Shown piece after piece: positions 9,347 through 23,130 of a DNA stretch of 45,562 nucleotides. The notes under the pieces were generated by a model. It worked only from the letters and a program-made list of their open reading frames with translations, searched no databases and was not told the DNA's origin. Source of the DNA: Clostridiales bacterium (GTDB taxonomy: Bacteria; Bacillota; Clostridia; Christensenellales; Aristaeellaceae); NCBI GenBank assembly GCA_012520375.1, contig JAAYOH010000075.1:1-45562 (forward strand), given 5' to 3'. The first letter of the stretch is position 1. Each line of letters opens with the position of its first letter. Both the position numbers and the translations under genes were made by a program.

Positions 9347-10237
9347 ATGCGGGAATATTTCTGCCCCGTGTCCCCCGAGGACGCGGGGCGGCCCATCAAG
9401 CGGGTGATCCGCAGCCGGCTGGGCCTGTCCCACCGGCAGTTCGTGTTGCTCAAGTATCAAGGGGAGATGCTGCTGGACGGCCAGCCCGTCCGCGCGGACA
9501 AGGCCGTCGGGGCCGGGCAGATCATCACGGTGCGGCTGGCGGAAAAGGACCGGGCAGCGGAGGGAAGGCCCGGCCCCCTGAACATCCTGTACCAAGACGA
9601 GGATATCCTGGTGCTGGACAAGCCCGCTCCCCTGCCTTGCCAAGCTTCTTCCCGGCAGGAGGGGGACGCCCTGGAGCACTATCTGGCCTGGCGCTTCCGG
9701 GAGCGGGCCGGCGCCTATACCTTCCGCCCGGTGAACCGTCTGGACAAGGGCACCAGCGGGCTGATGGCGGTGGCCATGAACGCCCACGCCCAGATGGTGC
9801 TGAGCGCTTGTCTGCACACCCCCGCTTTCCGCCGGGAATACCGGGCGATCGTATCGGGGAGTCTTCCGGAGCCTGAGGGCCTCGTGGAAGCGCCCATCCG
9901 AAAAAAGCCCGGCCCTACGGTGTGCCGGGAGGTACATCCCGAGGGTCGTCCCGCCGTCACCCGGTATAAGGTACTGCGGAGCGACGGAGCCCGTTCCCTT
10001 GTCCAATTGGTGCTGGCCACGGGCCGCACCCACCAGATCCGGGTACACCTGGCCCACCTGGGCTGCCCGGTGCTGGGGGACTACCTGTACGGCACGGAAG
10101 ACCGGGAAAGGCTGCCCGGCCGCTTCGCACTCCACAGCAGCCTGCTGCGCCTCCCCCATCCCCAGACGGGCGAGGAGCTGGAATTTGCCTCGGAATTGCC
10201 GGCGGAGATGACGGCGCTGCTTCCGGACTGCCCCTAA
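9347..10237 (+). CDS. RluA-family RNA pseudouridine synthase
   Basis: A 296-residue enzyme that isomerises uridine to pseudouridine in rRNA or tRNA. An S4-like RNA-binding segment (SHRQFVLLKYQGEMLLDGQPV) fills the N-terminus. The catalytic motif is RPVNRLDKGTSGL, with the essential Asp and Asn in place of the more usual His before RLD. The RTHQIRVHLAHLGCPVLGD motif is exact. A TGGAGG site precedes the ATG. The substrate position (RluC-, RluD- or YjbO-like) cannot be told from sequence alone. It ends tail to tail with the ROK regulator, overlapping by four bases. Confidence 0.9.
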   Translation: MREYFCPVSPEDAGRPIKRVIRSRLGLSHRQFVLLKYQGEMLLDGQPVRADKAVGAGQIITVRLAEKDRAAEGRPGPLNILYQDEDILVLDKPAPLPCQASSRQEGDALEHYLAWRFRERAGAYTFRPVNRLDKGTSGLMAVAMNAHAQMVLSACLHTPAFRREYRAIVSGSLPEPEGLVEAPIRKKPGPTVCREVHPEGRPAVTRYKVLRSDGARSLVQLVLATGRTHQIRVHLAHLGCPVLGDYLYGTEDRERLPGRFALHSSLLRLPHPQTGEELEFASELPAEMTALLPDCP

Positions 10238-11334
10238 ACCGCGAAATGATGATTGAAGATGTGCGCGCTCATGCCCCGGATGCCCATGTGTGTCTCCTCC
10301 CGGCAGATCCCGAAGGTTAGGTCCCGCAGGTGACCATCGGTCACCCGGCAGCGGATGCGCTCGATCAGCAGGTCCCGGTTTTCTGTCCCAAGGTTCCGAA
10401 CCAGCCGTCCGCTGAGCAGCACGATCCCGGGATCGTACAGATTGACGGCGGTGGAAATGGCCATGGAATAATAATCCAGCAGCGCATCGTCCACCTGATT
10501 CCCGTTTCGCATCAAGTGATACCGGACGACGGCTTCCAGGCAGCCCCTTTGCCCACAGGAACAGGGAACATCTTCGGGCAGTTTGATGTGGCCCAACTCG
10601 CCGTGCATATAATTGTGACCATGCTGACAATCGCCCCGGACCACAACCGAAGCGCCGATCCCCTCGTTTTCCATGAGCACCAGCAGGATGTGGTTGAACG
10701 TACGGGCCATTCCGAACTCAAATTCCCCCAGGGCGATCATGTGGGAGGTGCGCTCGAGAAAGATGTTGTTCCCGAAGGCTGTCTGAAACAGCGAACACAT
10801 GTCCACATTGCGCCAGCCCAGTTCCACCGAATGGAGCACGGTTTGACTGCGGCTGTCGATCAGACCGGGCATGACCAATCCAAGGCCCAGCAGGGCTTCC
10901 GGATCCACCGGATGCTTCTTCCGCAGTTCCCCGATGCCCTGGAGCACCACCTGGGCAAAGCCGAGGGGCATACAATTTGGCGGGAAAGAGAGCTGCAGAC
11001 TGTCCAGGATCGAAGCCCCCAGATTCACCAGACAAAGGGTACGGCTTCCCCACTCGAAGATATACATCAAGCGGGAGCCCTCATTCAGACACAGATAGCG
11101 GCTTACGCTGCGTCCCTTGCCGCGCCGCCGGGCTTCGGACCGTGGCGCCGGGACTTCGGTGATCAAACCGCTCTCCTGCATCTGTCGGACGATCATAGTG
11201 ACCGATGCGCGGCTGATGGCCATGGATTTCCAGATATCGGTACGCGAAACCCTTCCTTGGCTTCGGATATAGCGGAGCACCAGATTTCTGTTCAGCAGTG
11301 CCGCATCGGAATGGGAGAGGAACGCATCGCTCAT
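10234..11334 (-). CDS. ROK-family transcriptional repressor (XylR/NagC type)
   Basis: A 366-residue regulator with an N-terminal winged helix (about 14-78, recognition helix near SRASVTMIV, basic wing RRRGKGR) and a ROK sugar-binding domain. The ROK zinc site is present (GELGH at 246-250, CSCGQRGC at 259-266). The kinase-type DxGxT near residue 105 reads VNLGAS, so sugar kinase activity is unlikely and it should act only as a sensor. It follows the alcohol dehydrogenase on the same strand after 90 bases. A minus-strand TATAAT at 11369-11374 may give it its own promoter. It probably controls the divergon at 13845-14046, where a ROK-like operator is seen. Confidence 0.9.
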   Translation of the reverse strand: MSDAFLSHSDAALLNRNLVLRYIRSQGRVSRTDIWKSMAISRASVTMIVRQMQESGLITEVPAPRSEARRRGKGRSVSRYLCLNEGSRLMYIFEWGSRTLCLVNLGASILDSLQLSFPPNCMPLGFAQVVLQGIGELRKKHPVDPEALLGLGLVMPGLIDSRSQTVLHSVELGWRNVDMCSLFQTAFGNNIFLERTSHMIALGEFEFGMARTFNHILLVLMENEGIGASVVVRGDCQHGHNYMHGELGHIKLPEDVPCSCGQRGCLEAVVRYHLMRNGNQVDDALLDYYSMAISTAVNLYDPGIVLLSGRLVRNLGTENRDLLIERIRCRVTDGHLRDLTFGICREETHMGIRGMSAHIFNHHFAV

Positions 11335-11424
11335 GAAGTGACGCCCCTTTGTCTATAGTATTCTGCTTATTATATCAGGTCTGTCCGGCAAGCGACCCCG
11401 TTCGGCAAGTTTTTACAGATCACC

Positions 11425-12471
11425 TCAAGTCGTGCCGCGCTTGTCGCTGAGGTAGAAAACGCTCTTGATGAAGCCGTCCTCCCGCTTGACGGAATCTGCC
11501 ATACAGCGGGCAATGTGGGCAGCTTCGTACTTGTGCGAAACCAGAAGAGACAGGTCGAAGACACCCGATTGCATCATTTCGATGGTCATGGGCCAGTAGC
11601 GCTCGTACAGGCGACCGGTATCGGTGGCCGGCGTGGTATGGATCAGGCGCTGTCCGCGCAGGTGTCCCAGTTTGAAATCCAGCATGCGGGGGGTGCGGTG
11701 CCAGCCGAAGAGGTATATGCTGCCCGCCATGCCGCACATCTGAACGGCCAGATCCATGCCGCCCTGGCTGCCTGTGCACTCAACGACTGCATCAAAATGT
11801 CCGGGCCCCCAGACCTTGAGCCGATCTTCTCCTTCATCGCTCCCGATCAACAGGGTTTCCCACGCGCCGCAGCGCCCGGCTTTCTTGAGACTGGAGGGCT
11901 TAAGGTCTGCACACACGAACTGCGCCATGGGATATCCGCGCAGCATTTGGGTCATGAGCAGCCCCATAAAGCCCGTGCCGATGAGTAGTACTTTCATTCC
12001 CGGTTTGATCTCCATATACTGCCCGGCATTGACGATGGAGGCGACGGGTTCAACGACCCAGTGGGCGAAGTCATCCATGGTATCGGGCAGTTTGTACGCC
12101 ACATCAGCCGGCCCGATCACCCGTTCCGCCCATTGTCCCATGTACCAGCAAGCTGCACAGTAGTCGCCTTCTTTGAGATGGGTAACGCCCCGGCCCACCC
12201 GGGTCACCTGGTGGACCGCCTCGTGCCCGGGGATCATGGGATAGCGGGGATGGGTCAGTTCCCCCGTGAAAAGGGAGACCTCGTGGGTGCATACGGCGCC
12301 GCATACCGCGCGGGTCTCGATTTCGCCTTCTTTGGGGTCGCCGAAGTGGCGGGTGACCACCCGGGTACCGTGGTCGATTTCCTCCTGTCGGGTGGGCTTG
12401 TAATCGTCAGTCGGCGTCAGTTCACGCCAGCTGATTTCGCCAATGCGCTCGATGCATACCGATTTGGCCAT
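11425..12471 (-). CDS. Zinc-type alcohol/polyol dehydrogenase (MDR superfamily)
   Basis: A 348-residue medium-chain dehydrogenase. The catalytic zinc region shows CGAVCTHEV and PMIPGHEAVHQV, and the Rossmann motif is LLIGTGFMGLLMTQML. The four closely spaced cysteines of the structural zinc lobe are missing: the corresponding stretch reads YCAACWYMGQWAERV. That absence is seen in polyol dehydrogenase and threonine-dehydrogenase-like branches. The start at 12471 has CAGGAGGCAGG upstream. It lies between the binding-protein gene and the ROK regulator, so it probably oxidises the imported sugar or polyol with NAD(P). Exact substrate unknown. Confidence 0.85.
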   Translation of the reverse strand: MAKSVCIERIGEISWRELTPTDDYKPTRQEEIDHGTRVVTRHFGDPKEGEIETRAVCGAVCTHEVSLFTGELTHPRYPMIPGHEAVHQVTRVGRGVTHLKEGDYCAACWYMGQWAERVIGPADVAYKLPDTMDDFAHWVVEPVASIVNAGQYMEIKPGMKVLLIGTGFMGLLMTQMLRGYPMAQFVCADLKPSSLKKAGRCGAWETLLIGSDEGEDRLKVWGPGHFDAVVECTGSQGGMDLAVQMCGMAGSIYLFGWHRTPRMLDFKLGHLRGQRLIHTTPATDTGRLYERYWPMTIEMMQSGVFDLSLLVSHKYEAAHIARCMADSVKREDGFIKSVFYLSDKRGTT

Positions 12472-12505
12472 GGTGACCTGCCTCCTGTTCTGTCTCGATG
12501 TGGGT

Positions 12506-12530
12506 GGGGCTGCCGCAAAACGGCAGCCCC
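12506..12530 (-). other. Intercistronic hairpin after the binding-protein gene
   Basis: Ten-base perfect arms (GGGGCTGCCG and its complement) enclose CAAAA, with no T-run. In ABC operons such hairpins often protect the binding-protein mRNA or partly attenuate the next gene. Confidence 0.6.
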
Positions 12531-12558
12531 GAACGGTATTGGATCGGTATTGCCCGAC

Positions 12559-13821
12559 TTAGTCCGCGAAGTACCAGGCCTGGGTCTCCATCATGAAGGC
12601 GGCAGCTTCTTCGGGGGTGCAGCCTTCCACCAACAGCTTGTAAATGGCCTCGCTGATGGCGGCGGTGTAATCCGGGCTCTGGTCGGACAACTGCTGATAG
12701 GGCATTTGCTGGAAAAAGTTCACGCCCTTGCCGGCTTTCAGATCCTGGATCTGGTTGAAGATGTCCAGGGCATTCTCATTTTCCAGGGAGGAGAAGATGT
12801 TGGAAGCGGCATACTGGCCGACTACCAGGTTGGTGAACATCTCGGAAGCCTCGACGTCGCCCAACCAGTTCAGATAGACCTTGGCTGCATCCAGTTTTTC
12901 ACCCTCCAAATTGGAATTGATGCCGTAGCCCATGATGATCCCTATGTTGATGGAGGTGGGTTCCTCGGCGGTCTCGCCGGGCATGAAGAACCAGCCCAGA
13001 TCCAGCTCGGGGTTGGCGGCTTCGATCACGCCCAACTCGAAGGAGCCCACGGGATAGATGGCTGCCATCTCGGCACAGAACATCATCTGCATGTCATCAT
13101 AGCCGATGCCCTCATATCCCTCGGGGAAGAACTGGGAGATCTCCTTGATCCACTCAAAGTGCTTGATGAAGCCGGGATCGTTGTAGTCCACCTCTTTGGC
13201 CATCAACTTGCCATGCCACGCGGAGCCGCCCGTTGTCATGGGCACGATGGTGGAGGACAGATATTCGGCAACCATCCAACTGTCTTTGATGCCGAAGGAA
13301 ATGGGCGTATAGCCCTTGTCCGCGATGGTCTGGCAGGCTGCCATGAACTCGGACCAGGTGGCGGGAACCTCTACGCCGCAGTCCGCAAAGATGGCCTTGT
13401 TGTAGAAAAAGCCGCCGTAACATACCGAGCCGGGCATGCCGTATACCACGCCCTCCTCGGTGGTCCAGGGATTGGTCATGGCGCCGTCCATGTTGGCCAG
13501 GTTGGGGATTTCATCCACGCTCAAGGGATACACATACCCGGCGTCGAAGATCTGACGGCCGGTCCCGAAGGCGCGAAGGAACATGAGGTCTTCTGCATTG
13601 CCCGAAGCCAGCTTGGTTTGCAGTACGCCGTCATATTCGGTAGCGGTCACGGGCAGGAATTCCACAGTGATGTCGGGGTAGGATGCCGTGAAGGCTGCGT
13701 TGATCTGATCCCATAGTGCTTTGTCATCGGTGCGCCAGCTGGTCATGGTCAGATTCACCTGTGCAAATGCGTTGCAACACAAGAAAGCCATCGCCAGTAC
13801 GAGAACCAGGAACTTCTTCAT
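12559..13821 (-). CDS. ABC transporter sugar-binding protein (family 1)
   Basis: A 420-residue extracytoplasmic solute-binding protein. The signal peptide is MKKFLVLVLAMAFLCCNAFA with cleavage near AFA-QV. A double cysteine lies in the hydrophobic core, but there is no good lipobox. The mature part begins VNLTMTSW and has the family's GVVYGMPGSVCYGGFFYNK and TWSEFMAAC segments. It captures a carbohydrate for the two permeases at 15897-17646, which lie on the other arm of the divergon. AAGGAGGAG precedes the ATG. Substrate unknown. Confidence 0.9.
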   Translation of the reverse strand: MKKFLVLVLAMAFLCCNAFAQVNLTMTSWRTDDKALWDQINAAFTASYPDITVEFLPVTATEYDGVLQTKLASGNAEDLMFLRAFGTGRQIFDAGYVYPLSVDEIPNLANMDGAMTNPWTTEEGVVYGMPGSVCYGGFFYNKAIFADCGVEVPATWSEFMAACQTIADKGYTPISFGIKDSWMVAEYLSSTIVPMTTGGSAWHGKLMAKEVDYNDPGFIKHFEWIKEISQFFPEGYEGIGYDDMQMMFCAEMAAIYPVGSFELGVIEAANPELDLGWFFMPGETAEEPTSINIGIIMGYGINSNLEGEKLDAAKVYLNWLGDVEASEMFTNLVVGQYAASNIFSSLENENALDIFNQIQDLKAGKGVNFFQQMPYQQLSDQSPDYTAAISEAIYKLLVEGCTPEEAAAFMMETQAWYFAD

Positions 13822-13844
13822 GGGGGACTCCTCCTTTATTTCTA

Positions 13845-13873
13845 TATATATCGCCGCAGCGATATGTTCTCAA
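13845..13873 (-). promoter_or_regulatory. Promoter of the binding-protein operon
   Basis: On the minus strand TTGAGA (13868-13873) and TATATA (13845-13850) are separated by 17 bases. The leader would be only about 20 bases before the ATG at 13821. A perfect palindrome fills the spacer and a second palindrome abuts the -35. Confidence 0.65.
13848..13865. promoter_or_regulatory. Palindrome in the promoter spacer (possible operator)
   Basis: ATATCGC and GCGATAT form perfect seven-base arms around CGCA. It covers the spacer and part of the -10 box of the leftward promoter, an ideal place for a repressor. It differs from the 13880 site, so a second regulator may act here. Confidence 0.55.
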
Positions 13874-13879
13874 AACGAA

Positions 13880-13899
13880 ATTTGGTTCAGAAACTAAAT
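13880..13899. promoter_or_regulatory. Probable ROK/XylR-like operator
   Basis: ATTTGGTT-CAGA-AACTAAAT is an inverted repeat with 7 of 8 matching positions. On the minus strand it begins ATTTAGTTT, close to the left half of XylR-type sites (TTAGTTTGTT). It lies six bases upstream of the leftward -35. The ROK repressor at 10234-11334 is the obvious ligand, by inference. Confidence 0.55.
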
Positions 13900-14017
13900 C
13901 AAAAGAAAAGGGGGAAACTTGCCATAAAATTCATAATTTCACCCGTATTGTAACGCAGGCCGCCGGGAATGTCAAGGGAAAAGTGAAAAAAATCTCCGTT
14001 TAGATGAAAATTCAGCC

Positions 14018-14046
14018 TTTACAAGTTAAGAAAAAACTGCTATACT
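14018..14046 (+). promoter_or_regulatory. Promoter of the transketolase operon
   Basis: TTTACA (14018-14023), a 17-base spacer and TATACT (14041-14046). Confidence 0.8.
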
Positions 14047-14093
14047 CTTCAGTGAATGAACTTGAATGAGCGAAAAAAGGATGTGAGCGATCT

Positions 14094-14948
14094 ATGTATG
14101 AAAACTACAGAGCCTTGGCGGCAAAGGCGCGCGCCCATTGCCTGAACATGGTGTACATCGGTCAGAGCGGACACATCGGCAGCATGCTTTCGGCAGCGGA
14201 CGTGCTGGCAGTGTTGTACGAAGGTATTTTGCGTGTGGATCCGGAGAATCCGGAATGGCCCGAACGGGACCGCTTCCTGCTCAGCAAGGGACATGCGGGG
14301 GCGCTCGTCTACGCCATTTTGGCGGAGAAAGGCTTTTTCCCAAAGGAATGGCTGAACACCTATGACCAGAATGGCGGGAAACTGCTTGGCCATATCAGCC
14401 ATCATGTTCCCGGCGTCGAGTTTTCCACCGGTTCGTTGGGCCATGGCCTGTCCATTGCCTGCGGTATGGCCAAGGTGGCACGGGAAAAGCATCAGAAGCA
14501 TCGCATCTTTGTCATGACCTCGGATGGGGATCTGAACGAGGGATCTTCCTGGGAGGCCATCATGTTTGCCGGACAGCACCATCTGGACAACCTGATTGCC
14601 ATCGTGGACTACAACCGGATCCAGGCCCTGGGCTTCAGCAAAGACATTTGCGACCTGGGCGACCTTGATAGCCGGGTATCCCCCTTTGGATGGACCTGTG
14701 TGTCCATTGACGGACATGATTATGGCCAGATCGAAGATGTGCTGAAGAGTGTCCCGCTGGTGCCCGGAAAACCTACCATGGTCATCGCCAATACCATCAA
14801 GGGCAAGGGAGTTTCCTTCATGGAAAATCAGGTGCATTCCCACTACTGGCATGTGGGGGACGAAGACCTGGACAAGGCACTGAAGGAATTGGCTGGCGGT
14901 GTGCCCGCTGAGATTGCGGAGTGTCTTCCGCAGGGGGTGAAAGCATGA
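14094..14948 (+). CDS. Transketolase-like protein, N-terminal (thiamine-diphosphate-binding) subunit
   Basis: A 284-residue subunit carrying the TPP pyrophosphate-binding half of a split transketolase. The start has GQSGHIGSMLSAADVLAVLY, and the substrate- and cofactor-binding His lies in SKGHAGALVYAIL. The GDG-type metal motif reads SDGDLNEGSSWEA, ending near VDYNRIQALG. The usual single-chain enzyme is about 650 residues. Here the two halves are separate genes with an ATGA overlap. The ribosome binding site (AAAAAAGG) is rather far from the ATG. Transketolases move a two-carbon ketol unit between sugars. In a transporter operon with three dehydrogenases and no kinase, the donor is probably a catabolic ketose and not a pentose phosphate. 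Confidence 0.92.
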   Translation: MYENYRALAAKARAHCLNMVYIGQSGHIGSMLSAADVLAVLYEGILRVDPENPEWPERDRFLLSKGHAGALVYAILAEKGFFPKEWLNTYDQNGGKLLGHISHHVPGVEFSTGSLGHGLSIACGMAKVAREKHQKHRIFVMTSDGDLNEGSSWEAIMFAGQHHLDNLIAIVDYNRIQALGFSKDICDLGDLDSRVSPFGWTCVSIDGHDYGQIEDVLKSVPLVPGKPTMVIANTIKGKGVSFMENQVHSHYWHVGDEDLDKALKELAGGVPAEIAECLPQGVKA

Positions 14949-15880
14949 GAAAGGTATTCAACAAAACGCTTGTGGAGTGCGCCAGAAAGGATTCTCGCAT
15001 CCATCTGGTGCTGGCGGACATCGGCTATGGAGAGATTGAACCCTTCGCCCGTTCCTTTCCGGAGCGCTATATGAACTGCGGGGTCATGGAGCAAAACATG
15101 ACAGGGGTGGCCTGTGGGATCGCCATGGAAGGCAACATCGCCGTCACCTACTCCATCGCCAACTTCCCAACGCTGCGCTGCCTGGAACAGATCCGAAACG
15201 ATGTATGTTACCACAATGCCAATGTCAAGATCGTCATCATCGGCGGCGGCGTATCCTACGGTCCCCTGGGCATTTCACATCATTCCACGGAAGACATCGC
15301 CATCATGCGGGCGCTGCCCAACATGGTGGTGCTGGCTCCCTGCGACAAACGGGAAGCCGAGGCAGCTACCCGGGCCATGCTGGCATATGAGGGCCCGGTC
15401 TACTTCCGCTGCGGCTACGTAGGGGAAAAGGACATCCATCACGGCACCATTGATTTTCAGATCGGCCGATCCATTGAAGTGGAACAGGGCGACGACTGCT
15501 GTGTGATTTTTTCCGGTCCGCTGGGCTACGAGGTGCAAAAGGCAGTGCTTGCCCTGCGCGAAGAGGGGATCCGGGCTCAGCTCATCTCCATGCATACGAT
15601 AAAACCCATAGATCGCGGGGCCATTGTCCGTGCGGCAAAAGAGACCGGCAACATCCTGACGGTGGAGGAACACAACCTGTCCGGAGGCCTCGGCAGCGCC
15701 GTCGCGGAGGTGCTGGCAGACGAGGGTTGTCTGGACGTCAGATTCAAACGCATGGCTTTGCCCGATGTGTTCGTCCACGAAGTGGGATCCCAGCAATGGC
15801 TGAGGGATCAATATGGTTTGGGTTTGGAGGACGTCAAACGGGAGATCCGGTCGTTGCTCGCTCCCGCGACCGGAACGTAA
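14945..15880 (+). CDS. Transketolase-like protein, C-terminal (pyrimidine and C-terminal domain) subunit
   Basis: A 311-residue partner of the preceding subunit. The catalytic Glu that activates the thiamine ring is in NCGVMEQNMTGVACGIA. The pyrimidine domain is followed by the C-terminal transketolase fold (CCVIFSGPLGYEVQKAVLAL, HTIKPIDRGAIVRAA, LTVEEHNLSGGLGSAVAEVL). I chose ATG 14945, with GGGGGTGA upstream, which overlaps the previous stop as ATGA and implies coupled translation in equal amounts. The frame is open a few codons further upstream, but this start fits the family. Relatives include DXP synthase-like proteins, but the two-gene layout and length fit split transketolases better. 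Confidence 0.92.
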   Translation: MRKVFNKTLVECARKDSRIHLVLADIGYGEIEPFARSFPERYMNCGVMEQNMTGVACGIAMEGNIAVTYSIANFPTLRCLEQIRNDVCYHNANVKIVIIGGGVSYGPLGISHHSTEDIAIMRALPNMVVLAPCDKREAEAATRAMLAYEGPVYFRCGYVGEKDIHHGTIDFQIGRSIEVEQGDDCCVIFSGPLGYEVQKAVLALREEGIRAQLISMHTIKPIDRGAIVRAAKETGNILTVEEHNLSGGLGSAVAEVLADEGCLDVRFKRMALPDVFVHEVGSQQWLRDQYGLGLEDVKREIRSLLAPATGT

Positions 15881-15896
15881 AGGGGAGGATGGTGCA

Positions 15897-16799
15897 GTGA
15901 AGCGATCCCGATCCTCTTTTCTGGCATTGGTGGCGCCGGCTTTCGTGGTTTATACCGCCTTTATGCTGGTTCCGTTGATCGCCTCATTGGGACTGAGTTT
16001 CTATGAATGGTCAGGATATGGCGCAAAGAACTTTGTCGGGGCGCGCAATTTCCTGCGCTTGTTTTCTGACGCCAATTACAGTACCCGCTTCTGGAATGCG
16101 CTGGGAAACAATACCTACTTTTTTGTCATCACCATGCTGATCCAGAACGTGACTGCACTTGTGCTGGCCGTACTGCTGGAACGAGGACTGAAAGGAAGCA
16201 ACCTCTTCCGCACCATTTTCTTTGCGCCCTCCACCATCTCGGTGGTCATTGTAGGGTACCTGTGGCTCCTGATCTACAATCCGATCTGGGGCGCGCTGAA
16301 CAAGGTGTTGGGACTTATTGGCATCAACATGAAAAATTTTGCCTGGCTGGGCAACGAAGGCACGGCACTTACGGCTGTAGCGGTCGCCAATGCCTGGCAA
16401 TACATCGGTATTCCCATGATGCTTTTCATTTCGGGCATCAATACCATCCCGGAAGAACAGTATGAGGCGGTTTCCGTGGACGGAGGCGGGGAATGGCACA
16501 AGTTTTGCTATGTTACGTTGCCCAATTTGAAACCCATCCTGTTCATCGTTTCCACCATGACCTTTGTGGGCAATTTTTCCTCCTTCGAAATCATTTATGC
16601 CATGGAGGGGACGCTGGGCGCCCCCAACTATGCAACGGATACCTTGGGTACCTTTTTCTATCGCACCGCTTTCGGCGCACGAACCGGCTCGCCCCCGGAG
16701 ATGGGGATGGGAGCGGCGATTGCCGCCGTGATGACCCTGATCATCGGGGTCGGCGTTGTGGCATGGCTGCGCTTCAATGCGGCGGGACGGGACGATTGA
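15897..16799 (+). CDS. ABC sugar transporter permease 1 (MalF type)
   Basis: A 300-residue inner-membrane protein with about six transmembrane helices, starting with a hydrophobic segment at SSFLALVAPAFVVYTAFMLVP. The EAA loop that contacts the ATPase is visible as EEQYEAVSVDGGGEWHKFCYVTLP. GTG at 15897 follows GGGGAGGAT and fits the family length. It lies 16 bases after the transketolase and 13 before permease 2. No ATPase gene is in the cluster, so a shared MsmX-like ATPase elsewhere must energise it. Confidence 0.9.
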   Translation: MKRSRSSFLALVAPAFVVYTAFMLVPLIASLGLSFYEWSGYGAKNFVGARNFLRLFSDANYSTRFWNALGNNTYFFVITMLIQNVTALVLAVLLERGLKGSNLFRTIFFAPSTISVVIVGYLWLLIYNPIWGALNKVLGLIGINMKNFAWLGNEGTALTAVAVANAWQYIGIPMMLFISGINTIPEEQYEAVSVDGGGEWHKFCYVTLPNLKPILFIVSTMTFVGNFSSFEIIYAMEGTLGAPNYATDTLGTFFYRTAFGARTGSPPEMGMGAAIAAVMTLIIGVGVVAWLRFNAAGRDD

Positions 16800-16812
16800 G
16801 GAGGGAAGCGCT

Positions 16813-17646
16813 ATGAGGAGGACAAGACTTCGGCTTTCAGATCTCCTCATCTATCTCGTGCTGGGCATTATGGCGCTGATCGTGGTGGCGCCCATCTTTC
16901 TTATGCTCATGACCAGTTTGAAAGGCAATCTCCAGTTTATGAAGCAGCCTCTTGCCCTTCCGGACGGCATCCACCTTGAGGGATATATATCGGTTTTCAC
17001 GGAGCACAACTTCCTCCGCTATGTGGGGAACAGTCTGTTTGTGACCTTGATCTCCCTTTCCGTATCCCTGGTATTTTCGGTCCTGCTGGCATACGCCCTG
17101 TCTCGTTACAGGGGCAAGTGGGTGACGCGATTGTATTTTTACTTCCTGATGGGTATGATCATTCCCATCCGACTGGGCGTTCTCTTCCTGAATGACCTGT
17201 TGAACAGGATGGGGCTGCTGGATTCCCTGTGGGGCCTGGTGTGCATTTATACAGCCATGAGCATTCCTTTTGCCATGTTCATTTTGACGGGCTACATCAA
17301 AATGGTGCCGGCAGAAATCGATGAGTCGGCCACTATCGATGGCTGCGGCACGGGCCGCATCATCACCCACATCATCCTGCCCCTTATCCGCCCTGCCATC
17401 GCAACGGTGGCGATCTATAATTTCATGCCCATTTGGAACGATGTGTATTTCCCCCTGGTGTTCATTTTTGACCAGAGCAAAAAGACCTTTATGCTGCACG
17501 TGACCATGTTCTTTGGGCAATACAGCAAAGACTACAACCTGATCTTTTCGGCACTTTCCTTTGCCGCACTGGTCAGCCTGATTTTCTATGCGTTTGGAAG
17601 CAAACAGCTCATCAAGGGCTTGACAGCCGGCGCACTCAAGGGATAG
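16813..17646 (+). CDS. ABC sugar transporter permease 2 (MalG type)
   Basis: A 277-residue membrane protein with about six helices and a MalG-type C-terminus (KQLIKGLTAGALKG). The EAA loop reads PAEIDESATIDGCGTGRIITHIILP. A GAGGAGGGAAG ribosome binding site overlaps the end of permease 1. It completes the importer with permease 1 and the binding protein at 12559-13821. Confidence 0.92.
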   Translation: MRRTRLRLSDLLIYLVLGIMALIVVAPIFLMLMTSLKGNLQFMKQPLALPDGIHLEGYISVFTEHNFLRYVGNSLFVTLISLSVSLVFSVLLAYALSRYRGKWVTRLYFYFLMGMIIPIRLGVLFLNDLLNRMGLLDSLWGLVCIYTAMSIPFAMFILTGYIKMVPAEIDESATIDGCGTGRIITHIILPLIRPAIATVAIYNFMPIWNDVYFPLVFIFDQSKKTFMLHVTMFFGQYSKDYNLIFSALSFAALVSLIFYAFGSKQLIKGLTAGALKG

Positions 17647-17658
17647 GAGGCGGTATCT

Positions 17659-18429
17659 GTGAACAGACTGGATGACAAGATCGCGGCCATTACGGGGGGC
17701 GGCGGTGGGATCGGTCGGGCGGCGGTGGATATTTTTTCTGAAGCGGGCGCCACCGTACTGATCCTGGAAATGGATGAGGCTACGGGACGCGGCGCAAAGG
17801 AAGCCGTGCTGGCTTCCGGCGGGCAAGCCGAGTTCTACCAGGTGGACATCTCGGAGCATCAACAGGTCCGCGCCGTGTTCCACCGCATTGAGGCTGAGTA
17901 TGGCGGCGTGGATGTCCTGTACAACAATGCATCGGTATTCTGGGGGAAGAAGGACGCACCGCTCGATGTGCTGGATATGGACGTGTTTGAGCGCATTCTG
18001 AGAATCAACCTGTTCGGACTGGTGTATTGCTCCAAGTACGCCGTTGGGCAAATGAAGAAGAGGGGCGGAGGCGCCATCATCCATACCGCATCCTCAGCGG
18101 GCGTCATTGGGATACCCAAGTGCGATGCGTATACCGCGGCCAAAGGGGGAACCGTTTCACTGACCCGTTCGATGGCGGTGGAATTCGGGCCCTTTGGGAT
18201 CCGAACCAACTGCATCGCGCCTGCTGCCATTGCCACGCCCATGGTCGTCGAGAGCAACCTGAGCGATCCGGATTTTGATGAGGACCATTTCCTGAACCAG
18301 GGGACGCCCCTGCGGCGCTGGGGAACGCCCGAAGAGATCGCCCGGACTGCACTTTTTCTGGCCAGTGAGGACGCCTCCTACATAAATGGCGCCATCCTGG
18401 TGGCAGATGGGGGCATTACCATTTCCTGA
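17659..18429 (+). CDS. Short-chain dehydrogenase/reductase
   Basis: A 256-residue classical SDR. The cofactor loop is TGGGGGIGRAA near residues 13-23, and NNAS marks the central sheet. The catalytic set is Ser in HTASSAG and Tyr/Lys in YTAAKGG. Asp or Glu after the second strand (LILEMDEA) suggests NAD rather than NADP preference. GTG at 17659 follows TAGGAGG. It probably oxidises a hydroxyl of the imported compound or of an intermediate. Substrate unknown. Confidence 0.9.
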   Translation: MNRLDDKIAAITGGGGGIGRAAVDIFSEAGATVLILEMDEATGRGAKEAVLASGGQAEFYQVDISEHQQVRAVFHRIEAEYGGVDVLYNNASVFWGKKDAPLDVLDMDVFERILRINLFGLVYCSKYAVGQMKKRGGGAIIHTASSAGVIGIPKCDAYTAAKGGTVSLTRSMAVEFGPFGIRTNCIAPAAIATPMVVESNLSDPDFDEDHFLNQGTPLRRWGTPEEIARTALFLASEDASYINGAILVADGGITIS

Positions 18430-18441
18430 GGAGGATGAGAT

Positions 18442-19491
18442 ATGAAAAAGATCAGGTGGGGCATTTTGGGGGCAGGCGGGATAGCGGATCGGCGCACCAT
18501 GCCCGGGATGCAGCTGGCTCCCCATGCCAGGATCGTCGCCGTGATGGAGGTTGATCCGGAAGTGGCTGAGGGACTGCGGCGGAAATACGGTGCGGACCGC
18601 TGCTATACCGAGGACGTCGCGCTGCTGGCGGATCCCGAGGTTGATGCGGTGTATATCGCTTCCCCTGTTGCCTTCCATGCAAGACAGGCTATGCTGGCCG
18701 CTGATGCCGGCAAGCATATCCTGATCGAGAAACCCCTGGCCCTGTCCTCCCGGGAGGGCCAGTCCATCGTGGACCACTGTGCGAAAAGAGGCGTACAGAT
18801 AGCAGCCGGCTTGATGATGCGCTTTGGCAGCTATGTGAATGCCATGCGGGAGGCGATCGCCCAGGGAAGGATCGGCGAGGTGGTCTCTTGCTTCGCCCAT
18901 TTTACTTGCTGGTATCCCGATATCGAGGGCAGTTGGCGCCAACGAAAGGAAACGGCTGGCGGAGGCGCTCTGATGGATATGGGTATCCACTGCATCGATC
19001 TGATCCGTTATGTGACGGGACAGGAGGTGAGGCAGGTGGCCGCCATGCACGACACCCTCACCTTTGACTACGAAGTGGAGGACAGTTCGACGTTGCTCAT
19101 GCGATTGGAAAAGGGGACGCTGGCCACGGTGCAATCCAACTTCAACATCCCGGACGAGGCCTCCCTTTGGCGTCTGGAATTCTTCGGGACCCGGGGTCGT
19201 CTGGCCGGCCGGGGCGTCATCGGGCAGGTGGACGGCGGCAGCGTGGACGCGGTCTTTCTGGACCGGGGTAGTGAGTACAATGCAAAACAGGACCATGGGG
19301 ACTCTGTATCTGCAACCTGCCTGGAAGCCCAATTGGGCAACATGTATGCGCGGGAGATCGAAAGTTTCTGCCTTTCTTTGATTGAGGGAAAACCGCTTGA
19401 AGTGCCTGCACAGGAGGCAGTTCAGTGTCAGCGCATCATCGAAGCAGCCTACAGGGCAAATGATACGGGGCGTTACGAGAACCTTTTCTGA
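18442..19491 (+). CDS. Gfo/Idh/MocA-family oxidoreductase
   Basis: A 349-residue NAD(P)-dependent sugar dehydrogenase. The Rossmann motif is GILGAGGIADRR. The family's Lys lies in LIEKPLALSSREGQ, and the C-terminal catalytic segment has GGALMDMGIHCIDLIRYVTG. It follows GGAGGATGAG and is the last gene of the operon. Members act on inositols, glucose, anhydro sugars and hexuronic derivatives, so it is the third dehydrogenase of this locus. Which ring position it oxidises cannot be told. Confidence 0.92.
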   Translation: MKKIRWGILGAGGIADRRTMPGMQLAPHARIVAVMEVDPEVAEGLRRKYGADRCYTEDVALLADPEVDAVYIASPVAFHARQAMLAADAGKHILIEKPLALSSREGQSIVDHCAKRGVQIAAGLMMRFGSYVNAMREAIAQGRIGEVVSCFAHFTCWYPDIEGSWRQRKETAGGGALMDMGIHCIDLIRYVTGQEVRQVAAMHDTLTFDYEVEDSSTLLMRLEKGTLATVQSNFNIPDEASLWRLEFFGTRGRLAGRGVIGQVDGGSVDAVFLDRGSEYNAKQDHGDSVSATCLEAQLGNMYAREIESFCLSLIEGKPLEVPAQEAVQCQRIIEAAYRANDTGRYENLF

Positions 19492-19809: not shown

Positions 19810-20955
19810 ATGAAAAAGAAAGTCCTTGTTTTCTTTCTCCTTGCGATGTGCCTTACCGGTTTCGCGCTGGCGTCCACGGTTTCTTTGCCTGCGGATTCCT
19901 ATAAGGACACTTTTCCGGACCAGTACCAGAGTTATTTGAGAAACGCGGAAAACGATGAGAACTACGACTATGTCCAGGCTCATCCCCAAATCGCGGTTTT
20001 GTATGAAGGCTTCGGCTTTGCGCACTCGTATTTTTCCGCCCGCGGGCATGAGTATACGCTGGAAGATGTGAAAAACATCGGGAGGCCGCATCCCCTGGCC
20101 AACTGCCTAACCTGCAAATCCGGTGATTACACCGCAATGGTCAATGAGATGGGCATAGAAGCGTACAAACTGCCCTTTGATGAAACCTTTGCTGAGCTCA
20201 AAGGCGGGATCAGCTGTTTCAATTGCCATGGCGAAGAACCCGGTGTTCTCCAGGTCACCCACCAATACCTCAAGGACGCGGTGGGGGAGGACAGTGGTGT
20301 CAACCCTGCGATCCTGGCCTGTGCGCAATGCCATGTGGAATACTATTTCCCGGCCGACACCAAGGCGACGGTCCTGCCGTATGAAGGCTTGGAGAACGCC
20401 ACCCCTGAAATGATCTACGCGTATTTTGATCAACTGGGCTTCTCGGATTTTGTCAACCCGCGCACCGGCACCAATATGATCAAAGTCCAGCATCCCGAGT
20501 TTGAGACCTATACCGGTGCCGGAAGCGTTCACAAGAGCACGCATTCCTGCGCGGACTGCCATATGGGCAAGGCCGTCAATGAGGCTGGCCAAAGCTTTTC
20601 CTCCCATTACCTGACGAGCCCGCTGAAGAACCCGGCCGTCCGGGATTCCTGCGTGCAGTGCCATGCCGATCTGGATGAGTTTGTCAAAGGGATACAGGAC
20701 AGGACCGAAGAGCGTACCTATCTGATCGCGGACAAACTGGTCGACCTGACCAACGCCCTGGCGGACAAGGTTGCCGCCGGCGCCACAGATGAGGAACTGG
20801 CTCAGCTGCGCGCGCTCAACCGTGAAGCGCAGTTTTACTGGGATTTTGTCTTTGTGGAGAACAGCGAAGGCGCCCACAACAGCAAATTGTCAACTGCCTG
20901 CCTGGACAAGGCGGAGCTGCTGGTAGACCAGGCCCTGGAGCTGGTCAAGCAATAA
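19810..20955 (+). CDS. nrfA: Ammonia-forming cytochrome c nitrite reductase (pentaheme)
   Basis: A 381-residue exported enzyme that reduces nitrite to ammonium with six electrons. The Sec signal peptide ends near FALA-ST. Five haem sites are present: the active-site haem as CLTCK (99-103) and four CxxCH at 136-140, 171-175, 247-251 and 281-285. The catalytic set can be placed: R92, Lys103 as haem ligand, Tyr178 in CHVEYYF, and His228 in the calcium-associated KVQHPE. A further distal His is H356. It is much shorter than E. coli NrfA because the loop before haem 1 and other insertions are missing. AGGAGG lies 7 bases before the ATG. No NrfH quinol-oxidising partner follows. Instead come haem-ligation genes. 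Confidence 0.92.
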   Translation: MKKKVLVFFLLAMCLTGFALASTVSLPADSYKDTFPDQYQSYLRNAENDENYDYVQAHPQIAVLYEGFGFAHSYFSARGHEYTLEDVKNIGRPHPLANCLTCKSGDYTAMVNEMGIEAYKLPFDETFAELKGGISCFNCHGEEPGVLQVTHQYLKDAVGEDSGVNPAILACAQCHVEYYFPADTKATVLPYEGLENATPEMIYAYFDQLGFSDFVNPRTGTNMIKVQHPEFETYTGAGSVHKSTHSCADCHMGKAVNEAGQSFSSHYLTSPLKNPAVRDSCVQCHADLDEFVKGIQDRTEERTYLIADKLVDLTNALADKVAAGATDEELAQLRALNREAQFYWDFVFVENSEGAHNSKLSTACLDKAELLVDQALELVKQ

Positions 20956-20970
20956 GCGGCGCGATGACGG

Positions 20971-21006
20971 AGGCCTGCCGCGCTTGTGGTGGCAGGCCTT
21001 TTCTTT
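20971..21006 (+). terminator. Terminator or attenuator between nrfA and resB
   Basis: Nine-base arms AGGCCTGCC (20971-20979) and GGCAGGCCT (20991-20999) with TTTCTTT. As resB follows at once without another promoter that I can see, it probably lets nrfA be made in excess over resBC. Confidence 0.75.
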
Positions 21007-21022
21007 GGAAGGAAACCTGCCT

Positions 21023-22312
21023 ATGAAAAAAATGCTCCGTGTTTTTTCCTCCATGTACCTGGCCCTGGTTCTCCTGGGCTTGATTGTACTTTCTTGTGTG
21101 CTGGGCGGCATCATTCCACAGGGCGCCCTTCCGCAGGATTACAGGGACCTCTTTGGTGAGACATTTTCCCAAGTGATCCTGTTTGCGGGATTTGACCGGG
21201 TATTCACAGCCTGGTGGTTCATCCTTCTGATGGGATTGCTGCTGATCAATCTATTCCTGTGCAGCTTGATCCGTTTTCCTTCCACCTTGAAACTGTACAG
21301 GGAGGGCTTCACGCTCAACAGCTGTCTGCTTCAGACAAAGCCCAGTTTCGACCTGTGCCTTTCCCCTGGAAGAGCCCGGGATTTCTTACAACAACTGGGC
21401 TTTGCAAAGCCCCTTTCCCAAACGGTAGACGGGGTCCATTACCTGTATCAAAGCCGCAGGCGCCTGGGCGTCTGGGGTTCCTGGCTGTCTCATCTGGGGA
21501 TGCTGATCATCGTGGTAGGGTTTGCGCTGGGCCAGCTGCTGCATGTGGATACCAGCGTGTATGGCGTTCCCGGGCAAACCAAGCAGGTGCCGGGGCATGA
21601 CATCGCAGTTCAGATCGACGCCTTTGATATTATCCTGCGGGATGATCACACGGTGGAACAGTACATTGCGGATCTTACCATCCACAATACCAAGGACAAC
21701 ACCTCTGTCAAAGGGCAAAGCAAGGTCAATCACCCTCTTGAGGCTTACGGCATGAGCTTCCTGCAAAACGCCACCGGCTGGGCTGTGAATGTGTCCAGTT
21801 TCCGGGGGGAGGAACTGCTGGATGAACGGATTGTCTGCGCAGGGGAAAGCGTGGAGTTAAAGGATCTGCATGAGGACTATATGGATCTGGCCCTGGTGGT
21901 GCATGCCTTATACCCGGACGTGATCATGACGCCCGCGGGTCCCAGGACGGCAAGCCCGCACCTGAACAACCCGGCTGTCCTCTTTTCCCTTTATTACCAA
22001 GGCAAACTGGTGGACCAAAACCTGGTTGGCATAGGCCATGACATCAAAGCCTCGGATTACCGTTTTGTCCTGTCCTCCCCGCAGCCCTATACCTTGATCC
22101 AAATCGTTTCAGACCCTTCCCTGCCCCTGGTCATGGCTGGCGGCGTGCTGATGCTCATCGGGCTATTCCTGGCCTTTTACGTAAGGCCGCAGCAGGTGTG
22201 GGTGCGTTATGAGGAAGGACAGGAACGGGTTTATGGCTATGCAAAAAAAGGCGCGGACTTGTTTTCGGACAAAGCCGTCATGCTGACGAAGGAGATGAAT
22301 ACCACAACATGA
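21023..22312 (+). CDS. resB: Cytochrome c biogenesis protein ResB (CcsB/Ccs1)
   Basis: A 429-residue membrane protein of the System II haem-attachment machine outside the cell membrane. It has N-terminal helices (VFSSMYLALVLLGLIVLSCVLGGIIPQ, cut here by prose, and WWFILLMGLLLINLFLCSL), a third before a large extracytoplasmic domain (about 185-385), and a last helix (LVMAGGVLMLIGLFLAFYV). ATG 21023 with GGAAGGAAA upstream suits the family; an upstream in-frame start at 20984 would sit inside the terminator. It overlaps resC as ATGA. Together they should attach haem to NrfA, including the unusual CLTCK site. Confidence 0.92.
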   Translation: MKKMLRVFSSMYLALVLLGLIVLSCVLGGIIPQGALPQDYRDLFGETFSQVILFAGFDRVFTAWWFILLMGLLLINLFLCSLIRFPSTLKLYREGFTLNSCLLQTKPSFDLCLSPGRARDFLQQLGFAKPLSQTVDGVHYLYQSRRRLGVWGSWLSHLGMLIIVVGFALGQLLHVDTSVYGVPGQTKQVPGHDIAVQIDAFDIILRDDHTVEQYIADLTIHNTKDNTSVKGQSKVNHPLEAYGMSFLQNATGWAVNVSSFRGEELLDERIVCAGESVELKDLHEDYMDLALVVHALYPDVIMTPAGPRTASPHLNNPAVLFSLYYQGKLVDQNLVGIGHDIKASDYRFVLSSPQPYTLIQIVSDPSLPLVMAGGVLMLIGLFLAFYVRPQQVWVRYEEGQERVYGYAKKGADLFSDKAVMLTKEMNTTT

Positions 22313-23130
22313 ATTATTTGCAGGCGGAAACCATCCTATTTTCGATCACGGCTGTCGCCTACTTGATTTCGGCCGTGTTGTATATCCTCTTTTTTGCCCT
22401 GAAAAAAGAAAAACCGGGCGAACTTGCCGGCTATGTGCTCCTGGCCGCTTTCATCCTCCACACAGCAGCCCTGGTTGTCCGTTCCATCGGGGCTGGACGA
22501 TTGCCCCTGTCCAACCAGTATGAGTTTGCCACCAGCTTCGCCTGGGGGATTGCATTGTCCTATGTAATTTTCGCGCGGAAAAAGAAATACAGGGCGCTGG
22601 GCACCTTTGTGGCTCCGGTCATCTTCCTGATCATCGGGTACGCTGCCATGCAGTCCCGCGAGGTCAATGAACTGATGCCGGCGCTGCAGAGCAACTGGCT
22701 GGTCATCCATGTATCCACCGCCATCATCTCCTATGGAAGCTTTGGCGTCGCCTTTGGCGGCTCTCTTATGTATCTGTTGCGCGACCGCATTCATGAGAAC
22801 GAGTTTACACGCCATTATTTCCCCGAAAAGGAGCGCCTTGATGTTCTGAATTACCGGATGATCTCCTTTGGCTTTCTGTTTTTGACCCTGGTCATCGTTA
22901 CCGGCGCCATCTGGGCGCAGAAAGCCTGGGGGCGCTACTGGACCTGGGACCCCAAGGAAACCTGGTCACTGGTTACCTGGATTATTTACGCCATCTACCT
23001 GCACCTGCGCATCACACGGGGCTGGCGGGGCAAGAAGGCCGCGTGGTTTGCCGTCATCGGGTTTATCTGTGTGATCTTCACCTACATCGGCGTCAACACC
23101 TGGATCCCAAGCATCCACAGTTACGCGTAG
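22309..23130 (+). CDS. resC: Cytochrome c biogenesis protein ResC (CcsA)
   Basis: A 273-residue protein with about eight transmembrane helices and the haem-handling tryptophan-rich WWD-type signature WGRYWTWDPKETWSLVTW. Conserved His residues flank it (H154-type in WLVIHVSTAIISYGSF, and VTWIIYAIYLHLR). It exports haem and, with ResB, ligates it to CxxCH/CxxCK cysteines. The start overlaps the resB stop. W. succinogenes uses a fused CcsBA (NrfI) for the CxxCK haem, and this pair may be a split counterpart. Confidence 0.93.
   Translation: MNYLQAETILFSITAVAYLISAVLYILFFALKKEKPGELAGYVLLAAFILHTAALVVRSIGAGRLPLSNQYEFATSFAWGIALSYVIFARKKKYRALGTFVAPVIFLIIGYAAMQSREVNELMPALQSNWLVIHVSTAIISYGSFGVAFGGSLMYLLRDRIHENEFTRHYFPEKERLDVLNYRMISFGFLFLTLVIVTGAIWAQKAWGRYWTWDPKETWSLVTWIIYAIYLHLRITRGWRGKKAAWFAVIGFICVIFTYIGVNTWIPSIHSYA

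Follow-up and report, generated by a model that had tools for sequence, protein, structure and literature searches.

The apulose-4-phosphate transketolase route is a sugar catabolic operon in which a split transketolase (TK) is encoded together with an isomerase and a kinase. In the sulfoglycolytic transketolase (sulfo-TK) route, as set out in the cited portions of the source papers, the split TK SqwGH uses unphosphorylated sulfofructose as donor and glyceraldehyde-3-phosphate as acceptor, no sugar kinase step takes place, and the isomerases SqvD and SqwI are involved (PMC12890257; PMC11659671). Here we describe a nine-gene sugar locus at positions 10234–19491 of a 45,562-nucleotide contig from a Clostridiales bacterium (JAAYOH010000075.1; this whole stretch is called the window). 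As in the apulose-4-phosphate route, a split TK lies in a putative sugar catabolic operon, and as in the sulfo-TK route, the proposed path has no sugar kinase step and takes a ketol unit from an unphosphorylated ketose. Unlike the first route, the locus holds neither kinase nor isomerase, and unlike the second, it lacks both SqvD and SqwI.

We rate this gene set as a counterpart of the kinase-less sulfo-TK route in which dehydrogenases would feed the TK. Our preferred reading, to which we assign a probability of about 0.5, is that it forms a catabolic module in which a compound resembling a polyol or sugar, imported and left unphosphorylated, would be converted by a short-chain dehydrogenase/reductase (SDR) into a 1-hydroxy-2-ketone, which the TK would then cut. 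The importer, the repressor, a dedicated split TK with a depleted phosphate site, and the constant SDR are the established part of this picture. The initial annotation of the window had proposed a new entry path into the pentose phosphate pool. What is new is the dehydrogenase core, the lack of isomerases in that core, and a TK clade with a motif of its own, whereas a TK route that starts from an unphosphorylated ketose without a kinase has its precedent in sulfofructose. No literature on this gene set was found in the open-licence papers searched.

To compare the locus with its relatives, a scan with the TK N-subunit was made, which gave 245 related stretches, and the best 80 were kept. Nine loci whose TK C-subunit is at least 62% identical to that of the window (L025–L032 and L034) were taken as module members. 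Two more (L116 and L117) were added from genome searches, which makes 12 loci with the window. One member (L030) is truncated by a contig end, and L048, truncated inside the N-subunit, is a possible extra member of the original nine. The relatives belong to Clostridia (L025, L026, L027, and L034), Oscillospiraceae (L028), Spirochaetales/Spirochaetes (L029, L031, and L032, with L116 from the order of L029), Lentisphaeria (L030), and the order of the window itself (L117). Because the module core recurs at 52–79% identity in records of Clostridia, Spirochaetales/Spirochaetes, and Lentisphaeria, the gene grouping is not a chance neighborhood. The module, which occurs in bacteria of gut and environmental origin, is found in few of the genomes searched. 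The C-subunit is matched at E ≤ 1e−100 in 2 of 139 genomes from the order of L029 (that of L029 included) and in 1 of 398 genomes drawn from the phylum, which is the host genome itself.

The TK subunits are encoded on the forward strand at 14094–14948 (N-terminal, thiamine diphosphate subunit; Pfam Transketolase_N, 166 bits) and 14945–15880 (C-terminal subunit; Transket_pyr and Transketolase_C), which is the domain division of a split TK. Since the two genes overlap as ATGA (14945–14948), the chains are likely to be co-translated. The top Protein Data Bank (PDB) match of both subunits is the likewise two-chain TK of Carboxydothermus hydrogenoformans (6yaj/6yak), with E values of 9e−68 for the N chain and 2e−63 for the C-subunit against 6yaj. 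The pair was aligned within a set of 91 TKs comprising 12 clade members, 13 pairs that carry a DLGF/DLGY motif, 65 other pairs, and TktA of Escherichia coli. Of these, 89 pairs came from fetched loci (88 of 103; the remaining 15 were excluded because the two subunits were not both present within 400 bases on one strand), and single-chain TKs are absent from the 89. The 12 clade members are monophyletic with a support of 1.0, and their sister group consists of nine TKs of apparent polysaccharide loci (joint 21-member group, support 0.999).

Phosphate orientation in TK is attributed to the motif RSFHR, for which the sulfofructose TK carries the version RAFDR, in the cited part of Borusak et al. 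(PMC11659671). We mapped the motif letters on TktA residues 358, 385, 434, 461, and 520, which read RSFHR in TktA itself. All 12 clade members read RGIGY at these positions, compared with 0 of the 13 DLGF/DLGY-type pairs, whose motifs are RGIGR, RGIGK, and others, and 0 of the 65 others (0/78). Thus, Arg358 is kept, whereas residue 434 is Ile, 461 is Gly, and 520 is Tyr. Three further MAFFT modes gave identical letters apart from a gap at 385, where Gly appears in one of the four alignments, a gap in three, and Ser never. An earlier alignment, in which a gap brought Arg520 opposite a clade Arg and Thr stood at Phe434, was superseded by the larger alignments, which place Tyr and Ile there. All 12 members have Leu in place of Asp469; Arg91 is replaced by Tyr in 10 and by Asp in two, the window among the latter. 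RSFHR and Asp469, taken here as marks of pentose-phosphate TK (EC 2.2.1.1) specificity, are therefore both missing throughout the clade. In contrast, His26, His100, His261, and His473, which we take to be the catalytic set of TK, are each kept in all 12.

Both marks are present in the Carboxydothermus enzyme, with RSFHR as given in part of PMC11659671 and the Asp469 equivalent as seen in our alignment; both are changed here. A further comparison is offered by protein engineering. According to the portions of the reports cited, S385 contacts phosphate in E. coli TK, and S385, D469, and R520 were the sites altered as acceptor use was shifted away from phosphorylated compounds toward unphosphorylated and aromatic ones (PMC5073344; PMC10787763), the variant S385Y/D469T/R520Q accepting unphosphorylated aromatic aldehydes (PMC5073344). 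The clade is altered at the same three positions. Unlike the laboratory variant, it is natural, it has Gly (or a gap) at 385, Leu at 469, and Tyr at 520, and it differs further at His461, Phe434, and Arg91. As judged from these alignments, the usual phosphate hold appears mostly gone and the catalytic histidines retained. Because Arg358 is all that is left of this hold, the donor is likely to be unphosphorylated, in keeping with the cleavage of an unphosphorylated ketose that had been predicted for the locus. A phosphorylated acceptor, also part of that prediction, is possible and is unsupported by the residues; it is weakened because donor and acceptor use one channel with the same lost residues.

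Neighboring genes were located by tblastn and a rough composition score; part of the open reading frames (ORFs) around the related loci were scanned against Pfam and several were read by eye only. The constant partner of the TK is the SDR, encoded in the window at 17659–18429 on the forward strand (Pfam adh_short_C2, 203 bits). A gene 52–77% identical lies in the same gene run and on the same strand as the TK in 11 of 11 relatives, and therefore in 12 of 12 loci, with orthology judged from identity alone. It adjoins the TK in L027, L028, L030, and L117, is one gene apart in L034, follows the permeases in L025, L026, L029, and L116 as it does in the window, and in L031 and L032 is found ∼8 kb downstream. 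The medium-chain dehydrogenase/reductase (MDR), a zinc enzyme encoded at 11425–12471 on the reverse strand, is present in seven of the 12 loci (the window, L025, L026, L029, L116, L034, and L117); that of L026 is on a separate contig (L118), beside a binding-protein gene. Of 396 genomes sampled from the order, three (the host included) have it at E ≤ 1e−60, and all three copies lie in a TK block. At E ≤ 1e−30 no MDR was found in the genomes of L027, L028, L030, L031, and L032, which are five of the nine module-holding genomes searched. Spread by plasmid was considered and dropped, since a plasmid search with the MDR gave two hits, at only 28% identity.

The remaining genes of the block vary more. 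Importer genes related at 56–71% occur in L025, L026, L029, and L116, so that, with the window, 5 of 12 loci have an importer in the same block; L027, L031, and L032 have other importers (23–32% identity). A ROK repressor gene 40–47% identical accompanies six relatives (7/12 with the window). The ROK genes of L030–L032 are distant, and the regulator is a LacI in L034 and of the AraC type in L117. The Gfo/Idh/MocA dehydrogenase gene (18442–19491, forward strand; Pfam GFO_IDH_MocA) has a close relative adjoining the module only in L027 (70%), and is thus at the module in 2 of 12 loci. No match at E ≤ 1e−60 was obtained in 7 of 11 genomes, and the relatives in G421 and G422 (58–59%) lie within other clusters, while that in G424 (60%) lies near a contig end. 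This gene is a local addition outside the core. Of the three dehydrogenases in the initial annotation, all are present in the window and only the SDR is constant among the relatives. Oxidation at several positions, which it had inferred from them, does not hold as a general feature.

Among the many relatives of the SDR are 2,3-butanediol and gluconate 5-dehydrogenases, enzymes that act on hydroxy-ketones. The nearest solved relative of the MDR is the alcohol dehydrogenase 5vm2, followed by ketose reductase and sorbitol dehydrogenases. In the MDR, a Cys (aligned with 1e3j), the His-Glu of a GHE motif, and the Glu of a VEP motif match their counterparts in ketose reductase; we take these to be the zinc ligands of sorbitol dehydrogenase and ketose reductase. 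These ligands would place it in the polyol dehydrogenase branch, although its top PDB match is a plain alcohol dehydrogenase. For the Gfo/Idh/MocA protein, the nearest PDB relative is 1,5-anhydrofructose reductase.

In the route that we propose, the SDR would interconvert a hydroxyl and a ketone to yield the 1-hydroxy-2-ketone, helped in the window by the polyol-type MDR and, for a local substrate, by the Gfo/Idh/MocA enzyme. The TK would then move a two-carbon ketol unit from the unphosphorylated ketose to an acceptor aldehyde, which would leave an aldehyde two carbons shorter. Since the SDR is the constant partner of the TK, its reaction is set next to the TK step and would come directly before or after it. 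The shortened aldehyde might be reduced and then re-oxidized by the SDR and MDR, a pair that would stand in for the isomerase of sulfo-TK. The least certain step is the identity of the acceptor, possibly glyceraldehyde-3-phosphate, which would give xylulose-5-phosphate. A more tentative version, which we consider doubtful, has the TK step free of phosphate on both sides: The RGIGY TK would pass the ketol unit of the SDR-made ketose to an acceptor that likewise bears no phosphate, may be bulky or of an aromatic type, and comes from that imported compound or a different one, and the SDR–TK pair would be a general two-carbon peeling core for varied substrates. The core is found in several settings, including a polyol-type setting with the MDR, one with MttB/MtaA-like methyltransferases (L032), and one near a GH95-type glycosidase (L028).

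The absence of kinase, isomerase, and aldolase genes that had been noted for the locus is borne out by reading the nine-gene block and its nearest flanking genes, where none is present. It also extends to the conserved core of the 12 loci (the TK pair and SDR, often with the MDR and a transporter), among the neighboring ORFs scanned. Isomerase-type genes are nevertheless neighbors of the core in two lineages. In L027 (Clostridia), the opposite strand carries a galactokinase gene 4.6 kb from the SDR, and the Gfo/Idh/MocA gene is followed by NagB-like and PIG-L genes. In the spirochete loci L116 and L119, a xylose-isomerase-like TIM-barrel gene (AP_endonuc_2) lies beside the MDR; together with an unrelated Gfo gene (26–28% identity) it forms a separate set convergent with the MDR. 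L119 probably abuts L029, because two MDR fragments overlap.

The host genome, a 2.29-Mb draft of 106 contigs that is 95% complete, gives a wider view. It has four matches to the Transket_pyr family, the sugar locus among them. A protein of 629 amino acids reads as a probable 1-deoxyxylulose-5-phosphate synthase, and an 824-amino-acid frame is interpreted, by analogy to a relative, as a fused 2-oxo acid dehydrogenase E1. A second split TK lies in an apparent mraY–ftsZ region by sequence reading (L130, G000 contig 80, 10832–12642, after an apparent ftsZ) and carries the D-type motif KCFDR, so the pair of the sugar locus is not the sole split TK of the genome. FGGY carbohydrate kinases give 16 matches elsewhere in the genome; therefore, the term kinase-less describes the locus and not the cell.

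Several of these observations weigh against the preferred reading. Any of the 16 FGGY kinases could act in trans, epimerase- or NagB-like genes adjoin three loci, and the dehydrogenase pair cannot be a general stand-in for an isomerase, because the MDR was not found in five module genomes. No transaldolase and no phosphoketolase (XFP) match was found in the draft genome, and the exit of two-carbon units or xylulose-5-phosphate from the pentose phosphate pool is therefore hard to explain; a closed carbon cycle via phosphoketolase was considered and is unsupported for the same reason. Within the TK, Arg358 is kept, and other residues may hold phosphate. Moreover, the motif is variable among the 65 other pairs (RSYHR in 15, RPIGG in seven, RAFDR in five, exact RSFHR in three, and the rest scattered), and the RPIGG pairs (7/65) also lack the Ser, the His, and the last Arg. 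Loss of the phosphate motif would thus not be peculiar to the clade, and its meaning is drawn from comparison alone. Arg91 and Asp469 are both present in 21 of these 65, Arg91 alone in two, and Asp469 alone in none. In the same set, seven of 65 have Arg at the position of His26 and seven of 65 have Ile at that of His100. These are probably the RPIGG pairs, which may not be transketolases at all.

The simplest alternative is that a kinase encoded elsewhere phosphorylates the imported compound and that the TK pair is an ordinary pentose-phosphate TK in a conventional polyol or pentose route. The 16 FGGY matches, two ribulose-phosphate 3-epimerase matches in the genome, and the retention of Arg358 and of all the catalytic histidines examined are what such a route would lead one to expect. 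Yet His461 and Arg520 are changed and Ser385 is absent in 12 of 12 clade members, Asp469 and Arg91 are lost, the genome has another split TK, and the conserved core includes no kinase gene, which together make this explanation unlikely. We consider it still less probable that the TK joins rather than cuts, adding a hydroxyacetyl unit to an SDR-made keto-sugar in a module that is biosynthetic or modifies glycans. This possibility arises from the nine-member sister group in apparent polysaccharide loci (L033, L035, L036, and L007–L012), in which His461 is also Gly and Asp469 is also lost, and from the split-gene TKs of miharamycin and amipurimycin biosynthesis, for which the cited part of PMC12247030 proposes a role in branching keto sugars; the latter are likened here by description only and not by sequence. 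However, the polysaccharide-locus TKs adjoin apparent glycan genes, whereas that of the window adjoins an importer, a repressor, and dehydrogenases. Five of the 12 loci have an importer in the block and seven have a ROK gene, no nucleotide-sugar genes were seen among the ORFs read, which are part of those at the 12 loci, and RGIGY sets the clade apart from the motifs of the DLGF/DLGY-type pairs. By eye, sugar transferases, LicD-like proteins, and CDP-glucose-like enzymes are encoded near the DLGF-type TKs of the nine sister loci, which possibly make branched sugars.

Two other explanations are very improbable. The module could be a variant sulfo-TK route for sulfoquinovose or another sulfonated sugar, since a split TK, an ABC (ATP-binding cassette) importer, and a dehydrogenase are present and sulfo-TK has been reported from Clostridia, Spirochaetes, and Thermotogae (PMC12890257, in part). 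The window block has no SqvD or SqwI isomerase gene, and the SDR–TK core is not part of sulfo-TK as described in the cited portions of PMC12890257 and PMC11659671. Furthermore, the motif here is RGIGY, whereas TKs of the RAFDR type fall in another clade by motif: 16 pairs with Asp at 461, including five with RAFDR and the second TK of the host genome, form a separate group with a support of 0.965, in an alignment that holds no authentic SqwGH sequence. Finally, the substrate of the Gfo/Idh/MocA enzyme, SDR, and MDR could be an inositol-like ring, and the TK would then cleave an open-chain keto acid formed later in the route. The inositol route of Thermotoga is a precedent, and the Gfo/Idh/MocA protein resembles inositol 2-dehydrogenase (IolG model, 152 bits) and the MDR, weakly, IolM (49 bits). 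Both scores are far under the respective cut-offs of 355 and 450, nothing else from that route is encoded in the block, and the Gfo/Idh/MocA gene is outside the core; this explanation is about as remote as the sulfonated-sugar one. For the preferred reading of an SDR-fed TK that cuts an unphosphorylated ketose, the residue losses and the core without a kinase speak in favor, while a kinase acting in trans is possible.

The other genes of the nine-gene divergon are where they had been annotated, on the same strands, and Pfam places all nine in named families; NCBIfam offers related models. On the reverse strand, a ROK-family repressor with a winged helix and a ROK domain (10234–11334; Pfam ROK, 95.6 bits over cut-off, and a MarR helix-turn-helix) has NagC as its top NCBIfam model, with a score far under the model cut-off. 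The MDR gene, supported by Pfam and solved relatives, lies next to that of an extracellular sugar-binding protein (12559–13821, reverse strand; SBP_bac_1, 85.6 bits). The best PDB relatives of the latter bind chito- or xylo-oligosaccharides or sugars; deducing the substrate from this protein was abandoned, as its solved relatives take many different sugars and are uninformative. On the forward strand, two BPD_transp_1 permeases of the UgpA/MalF type (∼15897–16799) and the GlcU/UgpE type (∼16813–17646) follow the TK genes, with approximate starts because the start codons were picked by sequence reading. No ATP-binding ABC subunit is encoded within the block. The nearest genes to the left encode a pseudouridine synthase and an E/Q-type class I tRNA synthetase. 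Directly downstream, at 19810–23130, is an NrfA-type cytochrome c552 gene followed by ResB-like and cytochrome-c assembly genes.

A conserved ROK operator was considered and rejected. The palindrome-like TTTGGTTCAGAAACTAAA at 13881, in the divergent promoter, matches with 0 mismatches, but the motif was derived from the same sequence. Among nine related loci, a 0-mismatch site occurs in none and a one-mismatch site in four, one of which (L029:2171) falls in the corresponding intergenic stretch. These counts are given without a chance expectation, and no operator claim is made. A repeat search of the divergent promoter stretch found nothing.

Some related loci have further genes of interest. 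Beside its SDR–TK core, L032 carries genes for MttB-like and MtaA-like (URO-D) methyltransferases, a class III aminotransferase, an amidohydrolase, and another ABC importer, and L031 resembles it by reading, which suggests a methylated or aminated substrate there. Near the SDR, MDR, and TK genes of L034, two large proteins (11742–13100 and 16981–19065) have no Pfam match, the first also having no NCBIfam match. The Gfo/Idh/MocA relatives at L137:8269–9318 and L138:8034–9080 (58–59%) lie in two similar clusters, of which the one scanned (L137) encodes a PIG-L deacetylase, a BPD_transp_2 permease, and M24 and M20 peptidases. A PIG-L gene also follows the Gfo/Idh/MocA gene in L027, as noted above.

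If the preferred reading is correct, this module would add a second chemistry to the few catabolic TK routes, one in which dehydrogenases replace the kinase and isomerase in feeding a TK remodeled for substrates that bear no phosphate. Its TKs would be natural enzymes altered at three positions that engineers change by hand, and RGIGY would provide a simple marker for locating such TKs.

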